Below, in pieces: positions 32,335 through 62,370 of a stretch of 64,000 nucleotides of DNA; positions within the stretch are counted from its first letter, which is position 1, and each line of letters starts with the position of its first letter. Origin of the DNA: Clostridia bacterium (GTDB taxonomy: Bacteria; Bacillota; Clostridia; Oscillospirales; Acutalibacteraceae); assembly GCA_030526115.1 (NCBI GenBank), contig JAUNDK010000005.1, positions 1-64,000 on the forward strand. The letters are read 5' to 3'. Below the pieces are notes generated by a model. The model was not told where the DNA came from. It searched no databases and saw only the letters and a list, made by a program, of their open reading frames with translations. A program made the position numbers and the translations under genes.

Positions 32335-32578
32335 ACAAATGCAATGACGATGAGAGTAACTTTTTCCGAAAGTATCAGAGAGCTGTCGGTCGGTGTGAGA
32401 CAGCATGAGTAGAAAAAGGTGAAGATCACATCCGAGCAGCTGTCCCGAATTATCGTAGGAGCAGACGGAACCTTACCGTTACCAGAAGGAGCATATGACA
32501 GTATGTAAACAGGTGGTTTAAGCGATATTTGTAAATTGATGTCGTCCTGATTTATATCAGGACGGCTTTTTTATTTTT
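32335..32578 (+). ncRNA. T-box leader, isoleucine-specific
   Basis: Stem I start ATGACGATGAGAGTAA, an AGAGAGCTG...GGTGTGAGACAGC loop, then GAAGATCACATCCGAG, where ATC (32425-32427) sits in the specifier position, an Ile codon that fits the downstream ileS. The terminator is GTCCTGA/TCAGGAC (32544-32563) with a T-run. The usual GGTGGTACCGCG antiterminator box is changed to GGTGGTTTAAGCG, keeping the TGGT needed to pair with the tRNA 3' end but losing the ACCGCG side. Uncharged tRNA-Ile would prevent termination. Confidence 0.85.
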
Positions 32579-32626: not shown

Positions 32627-35600
32627 ATGTACAAGAATGTTTCAGCATCTCAGAACGTGGTTGAAAGAGAAAGAGAAACCGTAAAGTTCTGGAATGAGCA
32701 TCAGATTTTTGAAAAGACAGTAGAAGATTGCAAGGGCAAGCCTACTTACACTTTCTATGACGGTCCTCCAACCGCCAACGGAACACCTCACATCGGTCAC
32801 GTTTTAACCCGTGCCGTTAAGGACCTTATTCCACGTTACCGCATCATGAAGGGTTACGATGTTCCTCGTAAGGCCGGCTGGGATACTCACGGTCTCCCTG
32901 TTGAGATTGAGGTTGAGAAGATTCTCGGCATCAACGGTAAGGACCAGATTGAGGCTTACGGTCTCGACCCATTCATCTCCAAGTGCAAGGAGTCCGTCTG
33001 GAAGTACAAGGGAATGTGGGAAGACTTCTCCAAGGCTGTCGGTTTCTGGGCAGACATGGATGACCCATATGTAACATATGACAACAACTTCATCGAGTCC
33101 GAGTGGTGGGCTCTCAAGGAAATCTTCAACAAGGGTCTCCTTTACAAGGGATTCAAGATTGTTCCTTACTGCCCTCGTTGCGGAACACCGCTTTCCTCTC
33201 ACGAGGTTGCTCAGGGATATAAGCTCGTCAAGGAGCGCTCCGCTATCGTAAGATTCAAATTAAAGGAAGAGGACGCTTACGTTCTCGCATGGACAACAAC
33301 ACCATGGACACTTCCATCCAACGTTGCTCTCTGCGTAAACCCTGTTGAGTCCTACGTTAAGGTTAAGTCCGGTGACTACACATACTACCTCGCAGAGGCT
33401 CTCTGCGATACTATCCTCGGTGAGGGTAACTACGAGGTTCTTGAGAAGTTCGTCGGTAAAGACCTCGAGTACAAGGAGTACGAGCCGCTCTGGAACTTCG
33501 TTTCCCCTAACAAGAAGGCATGGTACATCACATGCGACAGCTACGTAACTCTCACAGACGGTACAGGTGTTGTTCACATTGCTCCTGCATTCGGTGAAGA
33601 CGACGCAAATGTCGGAAGAAACTATGACCTCCCTCTCGTTCAGCTCGTTGACGGCAAGGGCCAGATGACTAAGGAGACAAAGTGGGAAGGCGTATTCTGC
33701 AAAGATGCTGACAAAGAGGTTCTCGTAGACCTCGAGACAAGAGGCCTCCTTTTCTCCGCTCCTAAGTTCGAGCACAGCTATCCACACTGCTGGAGATGTA
33801 ACACACCTCTCATCTACTACGCAAGAGAGTCCTGGTTCATCAAGATGACAGCAGTAAGAGAGGATCTTATCAGAAATAACAACACAGTTAACTGGATGCC
33901 TGAGTCCATCGGTAAGGGCAGATTCGGTGACTGGCTTGAGAATATTCAGGACTGGGGTATCTCCCGTAACCGTTACTGGGGTACACCACTCAACATCTGG
34001 GAGTGCGAGTGCGGTCATTTCCACTCCATCGGCAGCATAGCAGAACTCAAGGAAGTTGCTGACAACTGCCCTGAGAACATTGAGCTTCACAGACCATACA
34101 TCGACGATGTTACAATCACATGCCCTGACTGCGGCAAGACTATGCACAGAGTACCTGAGGTTATCGACTGCTGGTTCGACTCCGGTTCCATGCCATTCGC
34201 ACAGCACCACTATCCATTCGAGAACAAGGACAAGTTCGAGGCTCAGTTCCCGGCAGACTTCATCTCCGAGGCTGTTGACCAGACAAGAGGCTGGTTCTAC
34301 TCTCTCATGGCTATCTCCACACTTCTCTTCAACCAGGCTCCTTACAAGAATGTTATCGTTCTCGGTCACGTTCAGGATGCTGACGGTCAGAAGATGAGTA
34401 AGTCCAAGGGCAACGCCGTTAACCCAATGGATGCCCTCAATACTTACGGTGCAGACGCTATCAGATGGTACTTCTACTCCAACTCCGCTCTCTGGCTCCC
34501 TAACAAGTGGCACGAGAAGGCAGTTATGGAAGGCCAGAGAAAGTTCCTCTCCACACTGTGGAATACTTACGCATTCTTTGTACTTTATGCTAACATCGAC
34601 AACTTCGATGCAACAAAGTACAACCTCGATGAGTGCAAGCTCACAGTTATGGACAAGTGGCTCATCTCCAAGCTCAACACTGTTATCAAGACAGCTGACG
34701 AGTACATGGCTGACTACAGAATTCAGGATACAACAAAGATTATGACCGAGTTCGTTGACGAGCTCTCCAACTGGTACGTTCGCCGTTCCCGTGAGAGATT
34801 CTGGACTAAGGACATGAATGACGATAAGATTGCCGCTTACATGACTCTCTACACAGCTCTTGTAGAGTTCTCCAAGGCAGCAGCTCCGCTCACACCGTTC
34901 ATTACAGAGGAGATTTATCAGAACCTCGTAAGAACAAACGATGCAAATGCACCTGAGTCCATCCACCTCTGCGCATACCCACAGTATGACGAGAGCAAGA
35001 TTGACACAGAGCTCGAGCAGAACATGGAAGAGGTACTCACAGCAGTTACTCTCGGCCGTGCTGCAAGAAACGATGCTGCAATCAAGAACAGACAGCCTCT
35101 CGCAAAGATGTATGTAGCAGGTGAGAATGAGATTCCTGATTCCTACAAGGCTATCATCACTGAGGAACTCAATGTTAAGGAACTCGAGTTCACAAACGAT
35201 GCAAGCAGGTTCGTAAGCTACACATTCAAGCCACAGCTCCGCCTTCTCGGTAAGAAGCTCGGCAAGCGCCTCAACGCTGTAAGAACAGCTCTCGCAGAGC
35301 TCAACGGCAGCGCAGCAAAGCAGGAGCTCGATAACACAGGTGTACTCAAGCTCGATCCTAATGACGGCGAGGGTGTAATCGAACTTACAGCAGAGGAACT
35401 CCTCATCGATACAGCAAAGGCAGAGGGCTTTGTATCCGCATCTGAAAACGGCGTAACAGTTGTTCTCGATACAACTCTCACAGACGAGCTCATCGAAGAA
35501 GGTATGGTTCGTGAGGTTGTAAGTAAGGTTCAGAACATGAGAAAGAGCTCTGACTTCCAGGTTACAGACCACATCGTTCTCGGTGTTGCAGGTAACGACA

Positions 35601-52912: not shown

Positions 52913-52929
52913 AATATCAAACTAATATG

Positions 52930-53209
52930 ATAAACCGATGAAGCGGAAGTAAAGACAGTTATGGCTTTACAGAGAACCCGGGATGCTGAGAGCCGGGTGA
53001 GAAACAGATTGTCAAATGGACCGCAGAGGGCGCAGTCAAATGTGATTATCACAGAGTATTCTGCGACGTTGAAGGCATACGTAATTTGCCGGGGATATAC
53101 AGGTATCCCGCTAAGTGCACAGGTCATGCTGTGAATCAAGGTGGCACCGCGGATAAGAACTATTCGTCCTTGACAGAAGGGATATTTCTGTCAGGGACGT
53201 TTTTATTTT
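52930..53209 (+). ncRNA. T-box leader, tryptophan-specific
   Basis: A full T-box: stem I start GATGAAGCGGAAGTAA, loop GCTGAGAGCCGGGTGAGAAAC, then AAATGGACCGCAGAG, where TGG (53017-53019) is at the specifier place just before ACC..GAG. The antiterminator box AAGGTGGCACCGCGG (53138-53152) is canonical. The terminator pairs CGTCCTTGACAGAA with TTCTGTCAGGGACG (53165-53199) before a T-run. Uncharged tRNA-Trp would switch on the YkvI-type transporter and the dehydrogenase. Confidence 0.88.
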
Positions 53210-56215: not shown

Positions 56216-56833
56216 TCATAATGTATTTGCAAATGAACTGAATACCGCTTCGGCAAAATCTTTGTGTCCCTGTTCCGTCATATGCTCTCTGTCCGTAAGA
56301 CTGGGAACCGCATAATCGGATGCGGCAAGGAAGTTAAGTTTTTTCCTTTTGGCAAGTTCTCTATATTCCCGCTTTAACTCTGACGAAGTCAGGAGGGATT
56401 TTTCGTTGAACTCAGGATCAGATTCCCATATGTTTTCGCCGAGGTGAATCGGTGAGACAAGCAGAATTTTATCCGCAGAAACGAACTTCAGAAGTTCGTC
56501 AATGCATTTCTCCATACCCTCTGCGACACTGTGGGCATTCAGGTCAAAACATTCCTTGCAGTCATTTGTACCAAGCATGATTATAACAGCATCAACAGGA
56601 GAATGGGTTTCCATTATAAGCGGCAGGGTTTTCAGGCCATTCCTGTTTTCACGGTAGCTGTCCTCGAAAACAGTGGTTCTTCCGCACAGACCTTCTTCTA
56701 TTATGCGTATATCCTTTCCGGATAACATCTCCTGAAGTACCCCGGTCCATCTTGTGTTCCATGGGTATCTTTCATGTGTGCCGGGGATAAGTCCCCAGGT
56801 ATTGGAATCACCGTAGCATAATATGGTTTTCAT
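56216..56833 (-). CDS. SGNH/GDSL-family hydrolase
   Basis: A 205-aa esterase of the SGNH fold. Block I LCYGDSNTWGLIPG (nucleophile Ser), Gly in block II, block III MLGTNDCKE (Asn), and block V DREHMTEQGHKDFAE with the catalytic Asp/His pair. There is no signal peptide, so it is cytoplasmic. The GDSNTWG form resembles aryl-esterase/acetyl-xylan-esterase relatives. It is downstream of the ABC operon by 28 bp and could be its last gene. Confidence 0.85.
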   Translation of the reverse strand: MKTILCYGDSNTWGLIPGTHERYPWNTRWTGVLQEMLSGKDIRIIEEGLCGRTTVFEDSYRENRNGLKTLPLIMETHSPVDAVIIMLGTNDCKECFDLNAHSVAEGMEKCIDELLKFVSADKILLVSPIHLGENIWESDPEFNEKSLLTSSELKREYRELAKRKKLNFLAASDYAVPSLTDREHMTEQGHKDFAEAVFSSFANTL

Positions 56834-56860: not shown

Positions 56861-57601
56861 TTAATATTCAAATGATTTTAAGAACTGTTTTGCTCTCTCT
56901 GTTTTCGGAGCTTCAAAAAATTCCTTTGGATTACTGCTTTCCTCTGCGATTTCTCCGTTTTCAAGGAAAAGTACACGGTCTGCAATGGCTTTTGCAAAGC
57001 TCATCTCGTGGGTTACTATCAGCATGGTACTGCCTGTTTTTGCAAGGTCGAGTACAACCTGAAGAACCTCGTGAACCATCTCGGGGTCAAGTGCCGCTGT
57101 AATTTCATCGAGAAGTAAAACTTCGGGGTGCATGATGAGGGACCTTACTATGGCAATTCTCTGCTTCTGACCACCGGAGAGCTGTCTGGGGTAATCGTTC
57201 TTTCTGTCGGCAAGTCCTACTCTGCTGAGCAGTTCCGTTGCCTCTGCTTCCACCTCGGAGCGTTTTCTTTTCAGAACCTTCATCGGAGCGAGGATAATAT
57301 TTTCAAGTATGGTTTTGTGGGGGAAGAGATCGTAGCTCTGGAAAACCATTCCGATTTTCTGTCTTATGGCAGTAATATCCTTTGAACCGCTTATGACTTT
57401 TCTGTCATCAATGAGTATCTCTCCGCCCTGAATATCCTCAAGACCGTTAAGGCAGCGCAGAAGTGTGCTTTTGCCACATCCGGAAGGTCCGATTATAACT
57501 ATAACCTCGCCTTTGATTACCTCAAAATCTATGCTTTTGAGTATTGTTTTGCCGTCAAATTCCTTGTGAAGATTTTTTACTGTAAGAAGAGTATTTCCCA
57601 T
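56861..57601 (-). CDS. Polar amino-acid ABC transporter ATPase
   Basis: About 246 aa, start ATG 57601 overlapping the permease stop as TAATG (AGAGGTGG upstream; the longer GTG start is unlikely). Walker A GPSGCGKST, Q-loop FQSYDLFPH, signature LSGGQKQRIAI, Walker B LLLDEITAALDPE, His in IVTHEM. It belongs to the GlnQ/HisP/TcyN group. The two permeases upstream are its partners. With the Cys-type binding domain at the start of the operon, cysteine or cystine is the likely cargo. Confidence 0.92.
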   Translation of the reverse strand: MGNTLLTVKNLHKEFDGKTILKSIDFEVIKGEVIVIIGPSGCGKSTLLRCLNGLEDIQGGEILIDDRKVISGSKDITAIRQKIGMVFQSYDLFPHKTILENIILAPMKVLKRKRSEVEAEATELLSRVGLADRKNDYPRQLSGGQKQRIAIVRSLIMHPEVLLLDEITAALDPEMVHEVLQVVLDLAKTGSTMLIVTHEMSFAKAIADRVLFLENGEIAEESSNPKEFFEAPKTERAKQFLKSFEY

Positions 57602-58275
57602 TATGACCACCTCTTTTCAAGATATACGGAAAGTTTGCCTATCGGCCAGCAGATGAGGAAATACATCAGGAATACCACCGCAAACACACCGAATGCCGCA
57701 TTGGGTGATGCTTTTCTGTTAGCCTCAATAATCTGCTGTGCCACTTTGAGTACCTCGACTATGCCTATCATCATGACAAGGCTTGTTGTTTTAATCATTC
57801 TTGTAATAAGATTTATTGAAAGCGGAATGAGCCTTCTTACAGTCTGGGGAAGAATAATGTGGTAGTAAACCTGAACTTTGTTCATTCCCAGCGCCATGGC
57901 ACTTTCATACTGAATTTTCGGAATACTTATGAGCGCACCTCTGACGAGATCGCCCATCTCTGCGGTACCCCAGAAGCTGAAAACTATAATTGCGGAAAGC
58001 TCTGCATCGAGATTCCAGCCGAACACCCTTGTGGTTCCGAAGTAAACGATGAACAGCAGAACCATCTGAGGCATAATGCGGACAATCTCAAGATATATTC
58101 TGAATATCGTTTTAAGCACTTTGTTTTCCGAGGTCATGAGAACTCCGACAATGAGTCCGAGCGCTATGCTTATGCTCACGGATATAAGGCTGATTCTCAC
58201 CGCAACCCAAAGGCCTGTGAGAAGTCTTATGAAGTTCTTTCCTTTGAAAATAACATCAAGACCCAAACTCTGCAT
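57601..58275 (-). CDS. Polar amino-acid ABC transporter permease 2
   Basis: A 224-aa inner-membrane protein of the HisM/HisQ type: about five helices, start segment GKNFIRLLTGLWVAVRISL, and the EAA loop AMALGMNKVQVYYHIILPQT. The ATG overlaps the end of permease 1 by 20 bp, and GGAG lies within the previous gene, so translation is coupled. It forms a heterodimer with the next permease. Confidence 0.9.
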   Translation of the reverse strand: MQSLGLDVIFKGKNFIRLLTGLWVAVRISLISVSISIALGLIVGVLMTSENKVLKTIFRIYLEIVRIMPQMVLLFIVYFGTTRVFGWNLDAELSAIIVFSFWGTAEMGDLVRGALISIPKIQYESAMALGMNKVQVYYHIILPQTVRRLIPLSINLITRMIKTTSLVMMIGIVEVLKVAQQIIEANRKASPNAAFGVFAVVFLMYFLICWPIGKLSVYLEKRWS

Positions 58276-58915
58276 GGCGAAGTCTCCTTTCCACTATATT
58301 ACCGAGTATTGATACCGGCAGAAGCATTATAAGATAAAATACCACCAGAAGTGTTAAGCACTCTATGGTTTTTGCGTACATTCCTATAAGGTCCTTTGCA
58401 GTGAACATCAGATCCATAAGGCTGATGGTTGAGAACACACTGGTTTCCTTTAACAGGAAAATTACATTTGCGACAAGTCCCGGTACACTGGAAGAAACCG
58501 CCTGAGGAAGTATTACATATCTGAATACCTGAAGCCGGTTCATACCAAGGCTTTCTGCGCTTTCGTACTGAATTTTAGGTATGTTCTCGAGACCGCTTCT
58601 AAAGGTCTCTGTCATGTATGCACCGCCTAAAAGTCCCAGACCCCATGTTCCGCAGGCTACGGGGGAAACTTTTATTCCGATTTTCGGTAATGCGAAATAA
58701 ATGAAGAACAGCTGAACAAGAAGCGGGGTGTTCCTGAAAAGCTGGGTATAGGCACCGACTGTCTGTCTGAAAACAGGAACTCTGAAATGAATTACCGCAG
58801 AGCAGAGAAGTCCGATTACTATTGAGATTATTACACCCTGCCAGCCCACTCTCATGGTGAGAAATAGGGCTTCTTTATACAGGGGCAGATAGGAAATCAT
58901 AACATCAAAATCCAC
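58256..58915 (-). CDS. Polar amino-acid ABC transporter permease 1
   Basis: A 219-aa HisM/HisQ-type permease starting at a GTG (58913-58915) with AGGAGGAA six nt before it. Segments FRNTPLLVQLFFIYFALP, ETFRSGLENIPKIQYESAES and the EAA loop SLGMNRLQVFRYVILPQA are characteristic. It follows metI by 17 bp. Confidence 0.9.
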   Translation of the reverse strand: MDFDVMISYLPLYKEALFLTMRVGWQGVIISIVIGLLCSAVIHFRVPVFRQTVGAYTQLFRNTPLLVQLFFIYFALPKIGIKVSPVACGTWGLGLLGGAYMTETFRSGLENIPKIQYESAESLGMNRLQVFRYVILPQAVSSSVPGLVANVIFLLKETSVFSTISLMDLMFTAKDLIGMYAKTIECLTLLVVFYLIMLLPVSILGNIVERRLRHAEFGS

Positions 58916-58932: not shown

Positions 58933-59598
58933 TTAATGGTTGTTTCTGTGGTCTGTTTTCTTTGAGATGAATGTTCCGATGTACTGCATGAGCTGAACTA
59001 TTATGACGATGAATACGAGAGTTACCAGCATGACCGGTGTGTTGTATCTGTAATATCCGTAGCGGATTGCAATGTCACCGAGACCGCCGCCACCTACAAC
59101 ACCTGCCATTGCGGAGTATCCGAGTACTGTACCAAGCACTATTGTAACTCCCACAATAAGTGATGTTCTTGCCTCGCCTATAAGAACTTTGAGAACTATG
59201 GTGCTTGTTTTTGCACCCATGCTTACTGCTGCTTCAATTACACCTTTGTTTACTTCTTTGAGAGAAGATTCCACCATGCGTCCGATGAACGGTGCGGCGG
59301 CAAGGGTGAGAGGTACTATTGTTGCAGTTGAGCCGTAGCTTTTGCCCACAATGAGTTTTGTGAGGGGCATTACCACAATAAGCAGAATTAAAAACGGTAC
59401 GCTTCTTGTTATGTTTATTATTATATCAAGGACACCATAAACCGCTTTGTTCGGTCTGAGTCCGTTTTTGTCTGTGAGTGTGAGGGCAATGCCTATGGGA
59501 AGTCCGATGAGGTATCCGAAAAAGGTGGATATCACAGTCATGTATATTGTGTCCCTTATGCCTTCGAGCATCATGATTGTCATGGTGTTATCCCACAT
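58933..59598 (-). CDS. metI: Methionine-type ABC transporter permease
   Basis: About 221 aa. The start is the ATG at 59596-59598, giving the normal MetI beginning (MWDNTMTIMMLEGIRDTIYM); an upstream frame inside metN is ignored. MetI features: GLPIGIALTLTDKNG, NITRSVPFLILLIVVMP, and the EAA loop VSMGAKTSTIVLKVLIGEA. The gene overlaps the end of metN, and its ribosome site GAGGAGG is made by the Glu codons of the MetN tail. Confidence 0.92.
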   Translation of the reverse strand: MWDNTMTIMMLEGIRDTIYMTVISTFFGYLIGLPIGIALTLTDKNGLRPNKAVYGVLDIIINITRSVPFLILLIVVMPLTKLIVGKSYGSTATIVPLTLAAAPFIGRMVESSLKEVNKGVIEAAVSMGAKTSTIVLKVLIGEARTSLIVGVTIVLGTVLGYSAMAGVVGGGGLGDIAIRYGYYRYNTPVMLVTLVFIVIIVQLMQYIGTFISKKTDHRNNH

Positions 59599-60361
59599 TT
59601 TCTTCTTCCTCCTCTTCTTCCAGTAATAACAGGCGTTTTGCCGCTTTTGATTTCGGATGTGCGAAAATCTCGGAGACAGTGCCGGTTTCCTGAACTTCGC
59701 CGTTTTCAAGAACCGCAACCGATGTGCATATCTCCTGAATAACCTTCATTTCGTGGGTTATTATAATAACAGTGATTCCCATTGTATCGTGAATGGACTT
59801 AAGCAGACCGAGTATGGTCTTGGTGGTTTCGGGATCGAGGGCGCTTGTTGCCTCATCGCAAAGCAGAATGTCAGGCTCGTTTGCCAGAACTCTTGCAATG
59901 GCGACACGCTGTTTCTGTCCGCCTGAAAGCTGAGAAGGGTAGGCATCCGCTTTTTCGGCAAGTCCTACTTTCTGCAGAAGTTCCAGTGCCTTTTTTCTGC
60001 GCTCCTTTTTCGGTATTCCTCTTATCTCCAGAGGAAAGCATACATTGTTAAGCACCGTCTGCTGTTCCAGCAGGTTGAAGTGCTGGAAGATCATTCCGAT
60101 TTTCTGTCTGCGCAGACGGAGTTTCTCATCTGACAGATTAAGAAGATTCTCGCCGTCAATTATAACTTCGCCGCTGTCGGGTCTTTCCAGCAGATTTATA
60201 CATCGTACAAGTGTACTCTTTCCGGCTCCTGATAATCCTATCACGCCGAAAATCTCATTTTTCGGAATGGTGAGTGACACGCTTTTCAGTGCTTCAACTG
60301 CGCCGTTTCCGGCTGAGTATCGCTTGGATATTGAATTCAGTGTAATGTAATTATCATTCAT
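59588..60361 (-). CDS. metN: Methionine-type ABC ATPase lacking the regulatory NIL domain
   Basis: A 257-aa ATPase. GLSGAGKSTLVRCINLLERP, FQHFNLL, LSGGQKQRVAIARVL and LLCDEATSALDPET are typical of MetN. Standard MetN has a C-terminal NIL/ACT-like domain of roughly 90 residues that senses internal methionine (trans-inhibition). Here the protein stops after the ATPase core with a poly-Glu tail (EEEEEEENVG). Uptake would therefore not be shut off by that route. Pairs with metI. Confidence 0.9.
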   Translation of the reverse strand: MNDNYITLNSISKRYSAGNGAVEALKSVSLTIPKNEIFGVIGLSGAGKSTLVRCINLLERPDSGEVIIDGENLLNLSDEKLRLRRQKIGMIFQHFNLLEQQTVLNNVCFPLEIRGIPKKERRKKALELLQKVGLAEKADAYPSQLSGGQKQRVAIARVLANEPDILLCDEATSALDPETTKTILGLLKSIHDTMGITVIIITHEMKVIQEICTSVAVLENGEVQETGTVSEIFAHPKSKAAKRLLLLEEEEEEENVG

Positions 60362-62046: not shown

Positions 62047-62108
62047 TGTTGTTACCTCATTTCAAAATATAAAAAGTTTAGCTGGTTTACACCGTTGGAA
62101 TCTGAGCA

Positions 62109-62142
62109 CAAAAAAACCGGGGCTTCAGATAAGCTCCCGGGC
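62109..62142 (-). terminator. Attenuator terminator of the sulfur-amino-acid operon
   Basis: In minus direction CCGGGAGCTT atctg AAGCCCCGG (bulged A) followed by TTTTTTTG. Its 5' arm overlaps TGCCCGGGAG (62134-62143), which can instead pair with CTCCCGGGCA inside the leader peptide gene (62232-62241). The two structures exclude each other. Confidence 0.85.
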
Positions 62143-62180
62143 AAATGGCTTTGTGGATATTTCAATCATGCTCTGAAATA

Positions 62181-62294
62181 TCATACATCGGTGCAACACA
62201 AAGTAGACGAATGCACCCTGCCATAACTATATGCCCGGGAGAACAACATTCGACAACACATTATGGAATTAACAGCTCTGTTTGTTCTTTTCAT
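62181..62294 (-). CDS. Leader peptide with two Cys-Cys pairs
   Basis: A 37-codon frame, ATG 62292-62294 to TGA 62181-62183, with the strong ribosome site AAAGGAGAGG nine nt upstream. It reads MKRTNRAVNSIMCCRMLF and ends SSTLCCTDV, with Cys at codons 13-14 and 33-34. It begins close to the promoter and is followed by the attenuator. The antiterminator arm starts 11 nt after the first Cys pair. Further hairpins GGTGCA/TGCACC and GATATTTCA/TGAAATATC (62156-62164, 62174-62182) lie within and after it. Read as a cysteine-supply sensor. Confidence 0.75.
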   Translation of the reverse strand: MKRTNRAVNSIMCCRMLFSRAYSYGRVHSSTLCCTDV

Positions 62295-62341
62295 AGCATT
62301 CCTCTCCTTTCACTGAGTGTTTGCTCAAATTCGATGGGCTT

Positions 62342-62370
62342 AATATACACCATAAATCCTACTATGTCAA
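62342..62370 (-). promoter_or_regulatory. Promoter of the sulfur-amino-acid operon
   Basis: Minus strand TTGACA (62365-62370), 17-bp spacer, TATATT (62342-62347). Confidence 0.8.

Follow-up and report, generated by a model that had tools for sequence, protein, structure and literature searches.

A probable transcription attenuator with methionine and cysteine control codons, shared by sulfur amino-acid operons in Clostridia

Control of transcription by leader-peptide attenuation is classical, as in the trp and his operons of Proteobacteria. In Firmicutes, the control of methionine and cysteine genes is usually credited to T-boxes, SAM riboswitches and DNA-binding regulators. Leader ORFs with Cys codons precede sulfur genes in Actinobacteria (PMC1262725); for the mycobacterial examples, no terminator was found and control was described as translational (Canestrari 2020, cited in PMC13236596). 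An earlier note on this DNA placed such leaders mainly in Actinobacteria. They are indeed described there, but also before cysS of Rhodobacterales, where the leader uORFC-8-2 has tandem Cys codons at about positions 14–15 and a terminator (PMC8632094). In Gram-positive bacteria, leaders with His codons have been predicted in Clostridioides and other Eubacteriales (PMC9413887) and in Bacilli (PMC2965389). Here, we analyze a leader in a window of 64,000 nucleotides (the whole stretch of DNA under study) from a Clostridia contig, and conclude that it very probably acts as a ribosome-mediated transcription attenuator responsive to how far tRNA-Cys and tRNA-Met are charged, as one member of a sulfur amino-acid leader regulon.

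With the classical attenuators, this leader shares runs of control codons, mutually exclusive antiterminator and terminator helices, and a decision that depends on ribosome position. It differs in that each tract holds codons for two sulfur amino acids, in serving a regulon of unlinked operons, in its occurrence in Clostridia, and in the CGA-AUG that follows the tract. Like the Actinobacterial leaders, it is a short ORF with a Cys-codon run before sulfur genes, but their run lies near the stop codon, whereas here Met is mixed in and an intrinsic terminator and antiterminator are conserved. Searches of NCBIfam and Pfam with the peptides of five leaders, to a limit of E 10, gave no match that would indicate homology to the Actinobacterial peptides, bar one chance match at E 0.9. 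The Rhodobacterales leader has its tandem Cys codons at about the same place as the window leader and likewise a terminator, but it controls the single gene cysS, is Alphaproteobacterial and uses Cys only; we claim no sequence kinship. The Firmicutes His leaders are also Gram-positive leader-peptide attenuators, but with His codons, before his genes, and in few genomes. The kind of attenuator is known. Its Met/Cys version in Clostridia is absent from Rfam (release 15 has no entry for this leader class) and from the literature searched, which covered papers open without subscription: neither a leader with Met or Met/Cys codons nor a sulfur leader regulon turned up there for Clostridia.

The promoter, leader ORF and helices all lie on the minus strand (Table 1). 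The preceding RelA/SpoT-like gene has a separate terminator (62476–62449), 3′ of which the promoter lies, and so we assign the promoter to the receptor operon. The earlier note had reported a consensus promoter, a 37-codon frame with a strong ribosome site and Cys pairs at codons 13–14 and 33–34, and two exclusive pairings. All of these hold, with coordinates and codons correct: the promoter matches consensus at 11 of 12 positions (62370–62342), CTCCCGGGCA and TGCCCGGGAG are perfectly complementary across 10 bp, and TGCCCGGGAG overlaps the 5′ arm of the terminator hairpin (62140–62117), which is followed by a T7 tract. The hairpin comprises 9 bp with one bulged A, at −13.0 kcal/mol. A simple terminator scan of the window misses it, and the bulged A probably explains why. 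Codons 13 and 14 start 17 and 14 nt, respectively, 5′ of the antiterminator arm. Beyond what the earlier note had described, the region contains Met codons in the control tract, a CGAATG/CATTCG pairing and a long outer stem that links the start of the transcript with the stretch immediately 3′ of the terminator.

Table 1. Coordinates of the leader, its RNA elements and the genes of the receptor operon in the window.
Feature	Position	Strand	Remark
Promoter TTGACA-17-TATATT	62342..62370	-	11/12 consensus matches
Outer stem 5′ arm GAATTTGAGC, predicted transcript 5′ end	62323..62332	-	
Ribosome-binding site AAAGGAGAGG of leader ORF	62301..62310	-	sequence
Leader ORF, 37 codons + TGA, peptide MKRTNRAVNSIMCCRMLFSRAYSYGRVHSSTLCCTDV	62181..62294	-	frame kept in relatives
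Control codons Met12-Cys13-Cys14	62253..62261	-	
CGAATG (Arg15-Met16)	62247..62252	-	nearly invariant; partner CATTCG at 62213-62208
Antiterminator 5′ arm CTCCCGGGCA	62232..62241	-	
Inner antiterminator extension ATGGC	62220..62224	-	partner GCCAT 62149-62145
Antiterminator 3′ arm TGCCCGGGAG, doubling as terminator 5′ arm sequence	62134..62143	-	
Intrinsic terminator	62110..62140	-	hairpin 62140-62117 + T7 tract 62116-62110
Outer stem 3′ arm GCTCAGATTC, past terminator	62098..62107	-	pairs with 62332-62323
Fused receptor, SBP_bac_3 (cystine-type) + NlpA/MetQ, 539 aa	60427..62046	-	
MetN-like ATPase	59588..60361	-	TIGR02314, E 1.4e-100, under curated cut-off
MetI permease	58933..59664	-	NF008049, over curated cut-off
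Two TcyL/TcyM-like permeases	57601..58915	-	58915-58256 and 58275-57601
TcyN/GlnQ-like ATPase	56861..57610	-	
GDSL hydrolase	56216..56833	-	final gene of run

The leader was folded with a ribosome in place, the RNA being taken as free from 14 nt ahead of the A site, an offset assumed from known footprints. Placing the A site on Cys13 or on Cys14 gives a probability of 0.94 for the antiterminator and of 0 for the terminator, in line with the earlier proposal that a ribosome stalled at the first Cys pair would end just before the antiterminator arm. Once the A site has moved to codon 17 or past it, the terminator has a probability of 0.98–0.99. The second Cys pair (codons 33–34) was rejected as a sensor, since a ribosome there lets the terminator form; of the two pairs proposed before, only the first, together with Met12, is placed to free the arm. 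When no ribosome is present, RNA extending up to the second antiterminator arm folds into the antiterminator (0.96), and the full RNA at equilibrium into the terminator (0.98). Among 146 leaders, 86 behave as a clean switch at equilibrium, a calculation that ignores the antiterminator forming first, and the median probability of the terminator is 0.41 with the ribosome stalled versus 0.91 with the ribosome past. In cystathionine synthase/lyase and LysR-type leaders, the antiterminator is mostly absent at this place.

These features suggest the following mechanism. Transcription would begin at about 62335, and a ribosome would start on the leader ORF. If Cys-tRNA or Met-tRNA is short, the ribosome would halt with its A site on Met12, Cys13 or Cys14 and its front edge just 5′ of CTCCCGGGCA, leaving this arm to pair with TGCCCGGGAG as the latter is transcribed. 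The antiterminator would capture the 5′ arm of the terminator, and polymerase would read into the genes for the receptor and two ABC transporters. If both tRNAs are charged, the ribosome would instead cover the antiterminator arm, the terminator would form and transcription would end. Behind the advancing ribosome, CGAAUG may pair with CAUUCG and sequester the antiterminator arm. The parts and the folding switch are computed directly, as are the conservation, covariation, codon pattern and position, and regulon described below; stalling in the cell and the sensing of both amino acids we infer from them.

A scan of named genomes yielded 80 fused receptors with 68–87% identity, chiefly from gut and rumen Lachnospiraceae. 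Most have a Met/Cys-codon leader ORF at the equivalent place, and the terminator is present in most as well. The earlier note had called for an alignment across relatives and a covariance analysis; the frame, Cys codons and antiterminator turn out to be kept, and in these relatives we did not see the hairpins retained without the frame or the Cys codons. A blind RNAalifold consensus of 35 aligned leaders consists of exactly the 10-bp antiterminator and nothing else. In this alignment, 98.3% of cells are paired, and 6 of the 10 pairs carry double changes. Pairing falls to 16–58% when the partner is slid, and the 13 double-change cells compare with 2.4 by shuffling (none of 500 shuffles reached 13). 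In the inner ATGGC/GCCAT extension, 78% of cells are paired, with double changes in 4 of 5 pairs. Covariation of the terminator on a MAFFT alignment is weak, no better than that of a one-column slide, because loop lengths vary. A subgroup (L050, L053, L054, L058, L061 and kin) has the identical layout with an unrelated arm pair, GGAATCCCG/CGGGATTCC. All 18 near relatives compared retain the outer stem, with compensating changes: one of its positions is variously U-A, U-G or C-G. It can form solely in read-through RNA, and our guess is that it may protect that RNA.

Might the ORF instead encode a working small protein, with the hairpin an ordinary upstream terminator? The peptide is indeed alike among near relatives. 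Outside the core MMCCRM-x-x-SRA, however, it varies in sequence and in length (18–49 aa), the SRA of the core is encoded by the antiterminator arm, and the peptide matches no Pfam or NCBIfam family, all of which makes a small protein barely credible. The start codon is ATG in 154 of 155 leaders, and a ribosome-site match is found in 144 of 155. Taken together, the leaders present a translatable ORF with a ribosome site, control codons at a permissive distance, and an exclusive antiterminator/terminator pair for which covariation is strong in the antiterminator and the terminator alignment weak. As a separate observation, several loci (L050, L052, L053, L054, L061, L063, L066, L070 and L044; also L037, L045 and L048) have a second small ORF between the attenuator or terminator and the receptor gene, with the layout CGAATG - hairpin - CGATGT and the peptide R-M-x-x-G-R-R-C. 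It looks like another RNA or peptide element.

Another reading is a metabolite riboswitch or T-box accompanied by a chance ORF; elsewhere among the Clostridia, these genes are under the control of such elements. In this genome itself, one SAM riboswitch and 16 matches to the T-box were found, and in L011, from another genome of the order, a T-box-like leader with AGGTGGTACCACG lies before a metQ. At the leader, however, no Rfam family matches at gathering score, either here or at 14 related loci; the best permissive match in the window leader has E = 3, in agreement with the earlier note, which saw no known riboswitch and named such a match as an outcome that would count against its reading. 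The T-box model (RF00230) gives nothing at the leader and detects T-boxes at other places in both the window and the genome. Likewise, RF00162 and other SAM families give nothing at the leader and one match elsewhere in the genome. What is conserved is the frame, the Met and Cys codons and the antiterminator, with no aptamer-like core. We regard a riboswitch or T-box at this leader as very improbable. Within the window, one T-box (96.8 bits, 32335–32552, plus strand) lies 5′ of the isoleucyl-tRNA synthetase gene at 32627, and a second, with a score at threshold, spans 52929–53174.

We examined codon composition as a function of distance to the antiterminator arm in 155 leaders, 60 from the receptor set and the rest from other operons. 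The combined share of Met and Cys is 88%, 94% and 90% at 12–14, 15–17 and 18–20 nt before the arm. Further 5′, it declines to 65% (21–23 nt), 32% (24–26 nt) and then 22% and 15%, reaching 2–4% at 39–53 nt. The consensus of the tract is M-M-C-C-R-M. In a non-redundant set of 63 clusters with little sequence in common, Cys occupies the fourth and fifth codons before the arm (12–17 nt) in 50 clusters each (p 3e-68), and Met occurs at 18–20 nt in 37 clusters and at the seventh codon (21–23 nt) in 33, with p 5e-31 for the latter relative to the upstream part of the leader. Both residues are present in 58 of the 63 clusters. Since ATG shares no base with TGT or TGC at any position, exchange of Met and Cys at a fixed codon points to selection on the encoded residue rather than on the RNA. 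There is good evidence, at the level of sequence, that selection acts on both Met and Cys in the control tract. The earlier description of a Cys-codon leader was right about Cys at the control position but too narrow, as Met is equally part of the tract.

Could the same attenuator sense cysteine only, its Met codons arising from start-codon context, from pairing or from drift of ATGTGT repeats? Cys is the more constant residue: counting back from the arm, it stands at 83% in the fourth and fifth codons. Leaders with Cys codons are, moreover, already established as a kind (PMC1262725, PMC8632094). One of the two residues is absent in 17 of 155 leaders, including ten receptor-set leaders that have no Met in the permissive stretch. 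The window leader has one permissive Met codon (Met12), and its nearest relatives are also poorer in Met. On the other hand, Met stands at 55–57% at the sixth and seventh codons, as against 2–4% further upstream, in 63 independent clusters. Some tracts, such as CMCMMMCGCM, MCMCMCRM and, before metNIQ, MTMMYMCMFRM, consist almost purely of Met and Cys, and the targets include metK, metY and metNIQ. On balance, sensing of cysteine alone appears unlikely, though well within consideration. When metQ/metNIQ leaders were compared with those of cysteine import, the Met share of their control codons showed no significant difference (p = 0.28); this share does not track operon type, and dual sensing is therefore unproved by this comparison.

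Codon usage in the leaders is unusual. Their Cys codons are TGT in 311 cases and TGC in 54, the reverse of the window genes (33 and 85, respectively). Of 137 leaders, 136 use CGA for the Arg that follows the tract, whereas CGA makes up 3% of the Arg codons of window genes. The 36 leaders whose last codons are Arg-Cys-stop all use CGA there too. Near-invariance of Cys-Arg-Met and of CGA goes beyond what tRNA sensing needs, and would speak for an arrest peptide or for a peptide that senses a small molecule, e.g. SAM, within the ribosome rather than tRNA charging. Yet the Met and Cys codons upstream of Arg-Met are freely exchanged, repeated and shifted, and a ribosome halted after Arg-Met would cover the antiterminator arm, favouring termination. 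An RNA role for the motif is suggested by leader L132, in which CGAAT is kept out of frame, and by the 6-bp partner of CGAATG, which is present in 57 of 138 leaders versus 22 expected and is clear in the receptor set. An arrest or sensor peptide is, in our judgment, improbable. Nor is CGAATG an RNA-pairing element only; we rejected this, as the partner is missing from all 18 metQ/metNIQ leaders.

The earlier note tied the switch to the fused receptor; instead, it precedes many sulfur amino-acid operons. These were found with a covariance model, R1, built from the receptor-set leaders, so that its matches are biased to their sequence, including the Cys codons; the Met codons at positions 7–9 before the arm lie outside the model. 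In this genome, R1 has a second match (75.7 bits, G000:C47:5566-5699, locus L100), with the leader MSTIKSETIVSMCSMCSRMLNFQASDMAEC. The L100 operon begins with a GST-like protein, followed by SBP_bac_3, a permease, an ATPase, a GNAT protein and a Cys/Met PLP enzyme, and would serve to scavenge cystine or S-conjugates. R1 matches occur in 13 of 391 sampled Clostridia genomes, in 80 of 188 genomes of the order around G154 (up to five per genome) and in 38 of 299 genomes of the family of G405, nearly all of distinct genera. The groups of Clostridia with the leader, taken at order or family level, number at least three. The isolate Lachnospiraceae bacterium YSB2008 has one of these leaders (L046). 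Downstream genes so far, with names that are provisional (assigned by local BLAST with a small set of reference proteins and by sequence reading), are metY-like (29), cystathionine synthase/lyase with cysK and metNI (26), metQ or metNIQ (18), cysteine import (tcyLMN) or cysK (9), and LysR with nitrogenase-like genes (7), in addition to metK, gshA and the fused receptor. We consider it rather likely that these leaders constitute a class which reads Met and Cys jointly and coordinates a regulon of sulfur import and synthesis across Clostridia groups, in place of the T-boxes and SAM riboswitches of other Firmicutes.

The leader stands before LysR and nitrogenase-like genes in L163, L175, L185, L190, L194, L195 and L249. 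In L132, it stands before metK, behind which lie NifH-like and sulfonate-type ABC genes. Perhaps these are organosulfur reductase clusters. In L259, it precedes an 821-aa protein resembling a glycyl-radical enzyme, with its activase, which would possibly cleave C-S bonds.

In the window, the operon itself appears to import cyst(e)ine and methionine, as judged from family membership. The receptor combines SBP_bac_3 (residues 53–258) with NlpA/MetQ (residues 299–536). The TcyL/TcyM-like permeases carry the subfamily domain TIGR01726 over the family cut-off, which does not fix their substrate. Relatives of the GDSL hydrolase lie 3′ of metQ in other leader-led loci. Over its 539 aa, the receptor has no Cys and two Met; at the rates of the other window genes (1.4% Cys, 2.7% Met), about 8 and 15 would be predicted. 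Its 79 relatives average 1.0 Cys and 2.1 Met. A sulfur-poor composition fits a protein that is made and works under sulfur amino-acid starvation. In the window receptor (62046–61950), the lipobox cysteine that 76 of 80 relatives have is missing, leaving a type I-like signal peptide. This could be a further saving of Cys, or an altered anchor.

The receptor operon is absent from the two congeneric species examined and scattered in the family. Contamination of the contig was rejected, since its IleRS shows 82% identity to that of each of the two congeners, against 37% at most beyond the genus; the contig is therefore native. With Lachnospiraceae receptors of up to 87% identity and congeners that lack the gene, it is likely that the operon was gained horizontally; a search of a plasmid collection gave nothing similar.

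As outlined here, the leader class covers genes for the import and synthesis of sulfur amino acids, and possibly for the synthesis of SAM, in common gut and rumen bacteria. In uncultured Clostridia, the leader can serve as a pointer to uncharacterised sulfur amino-acid genes. The class is also a natural setting in which to ask whether the charging of two tRNAs can be summed by a single leader. Finally, regulatory Met codons are seldom considered, Met also being the start of proteins, and these leaders provide a natural test of why such codons work.
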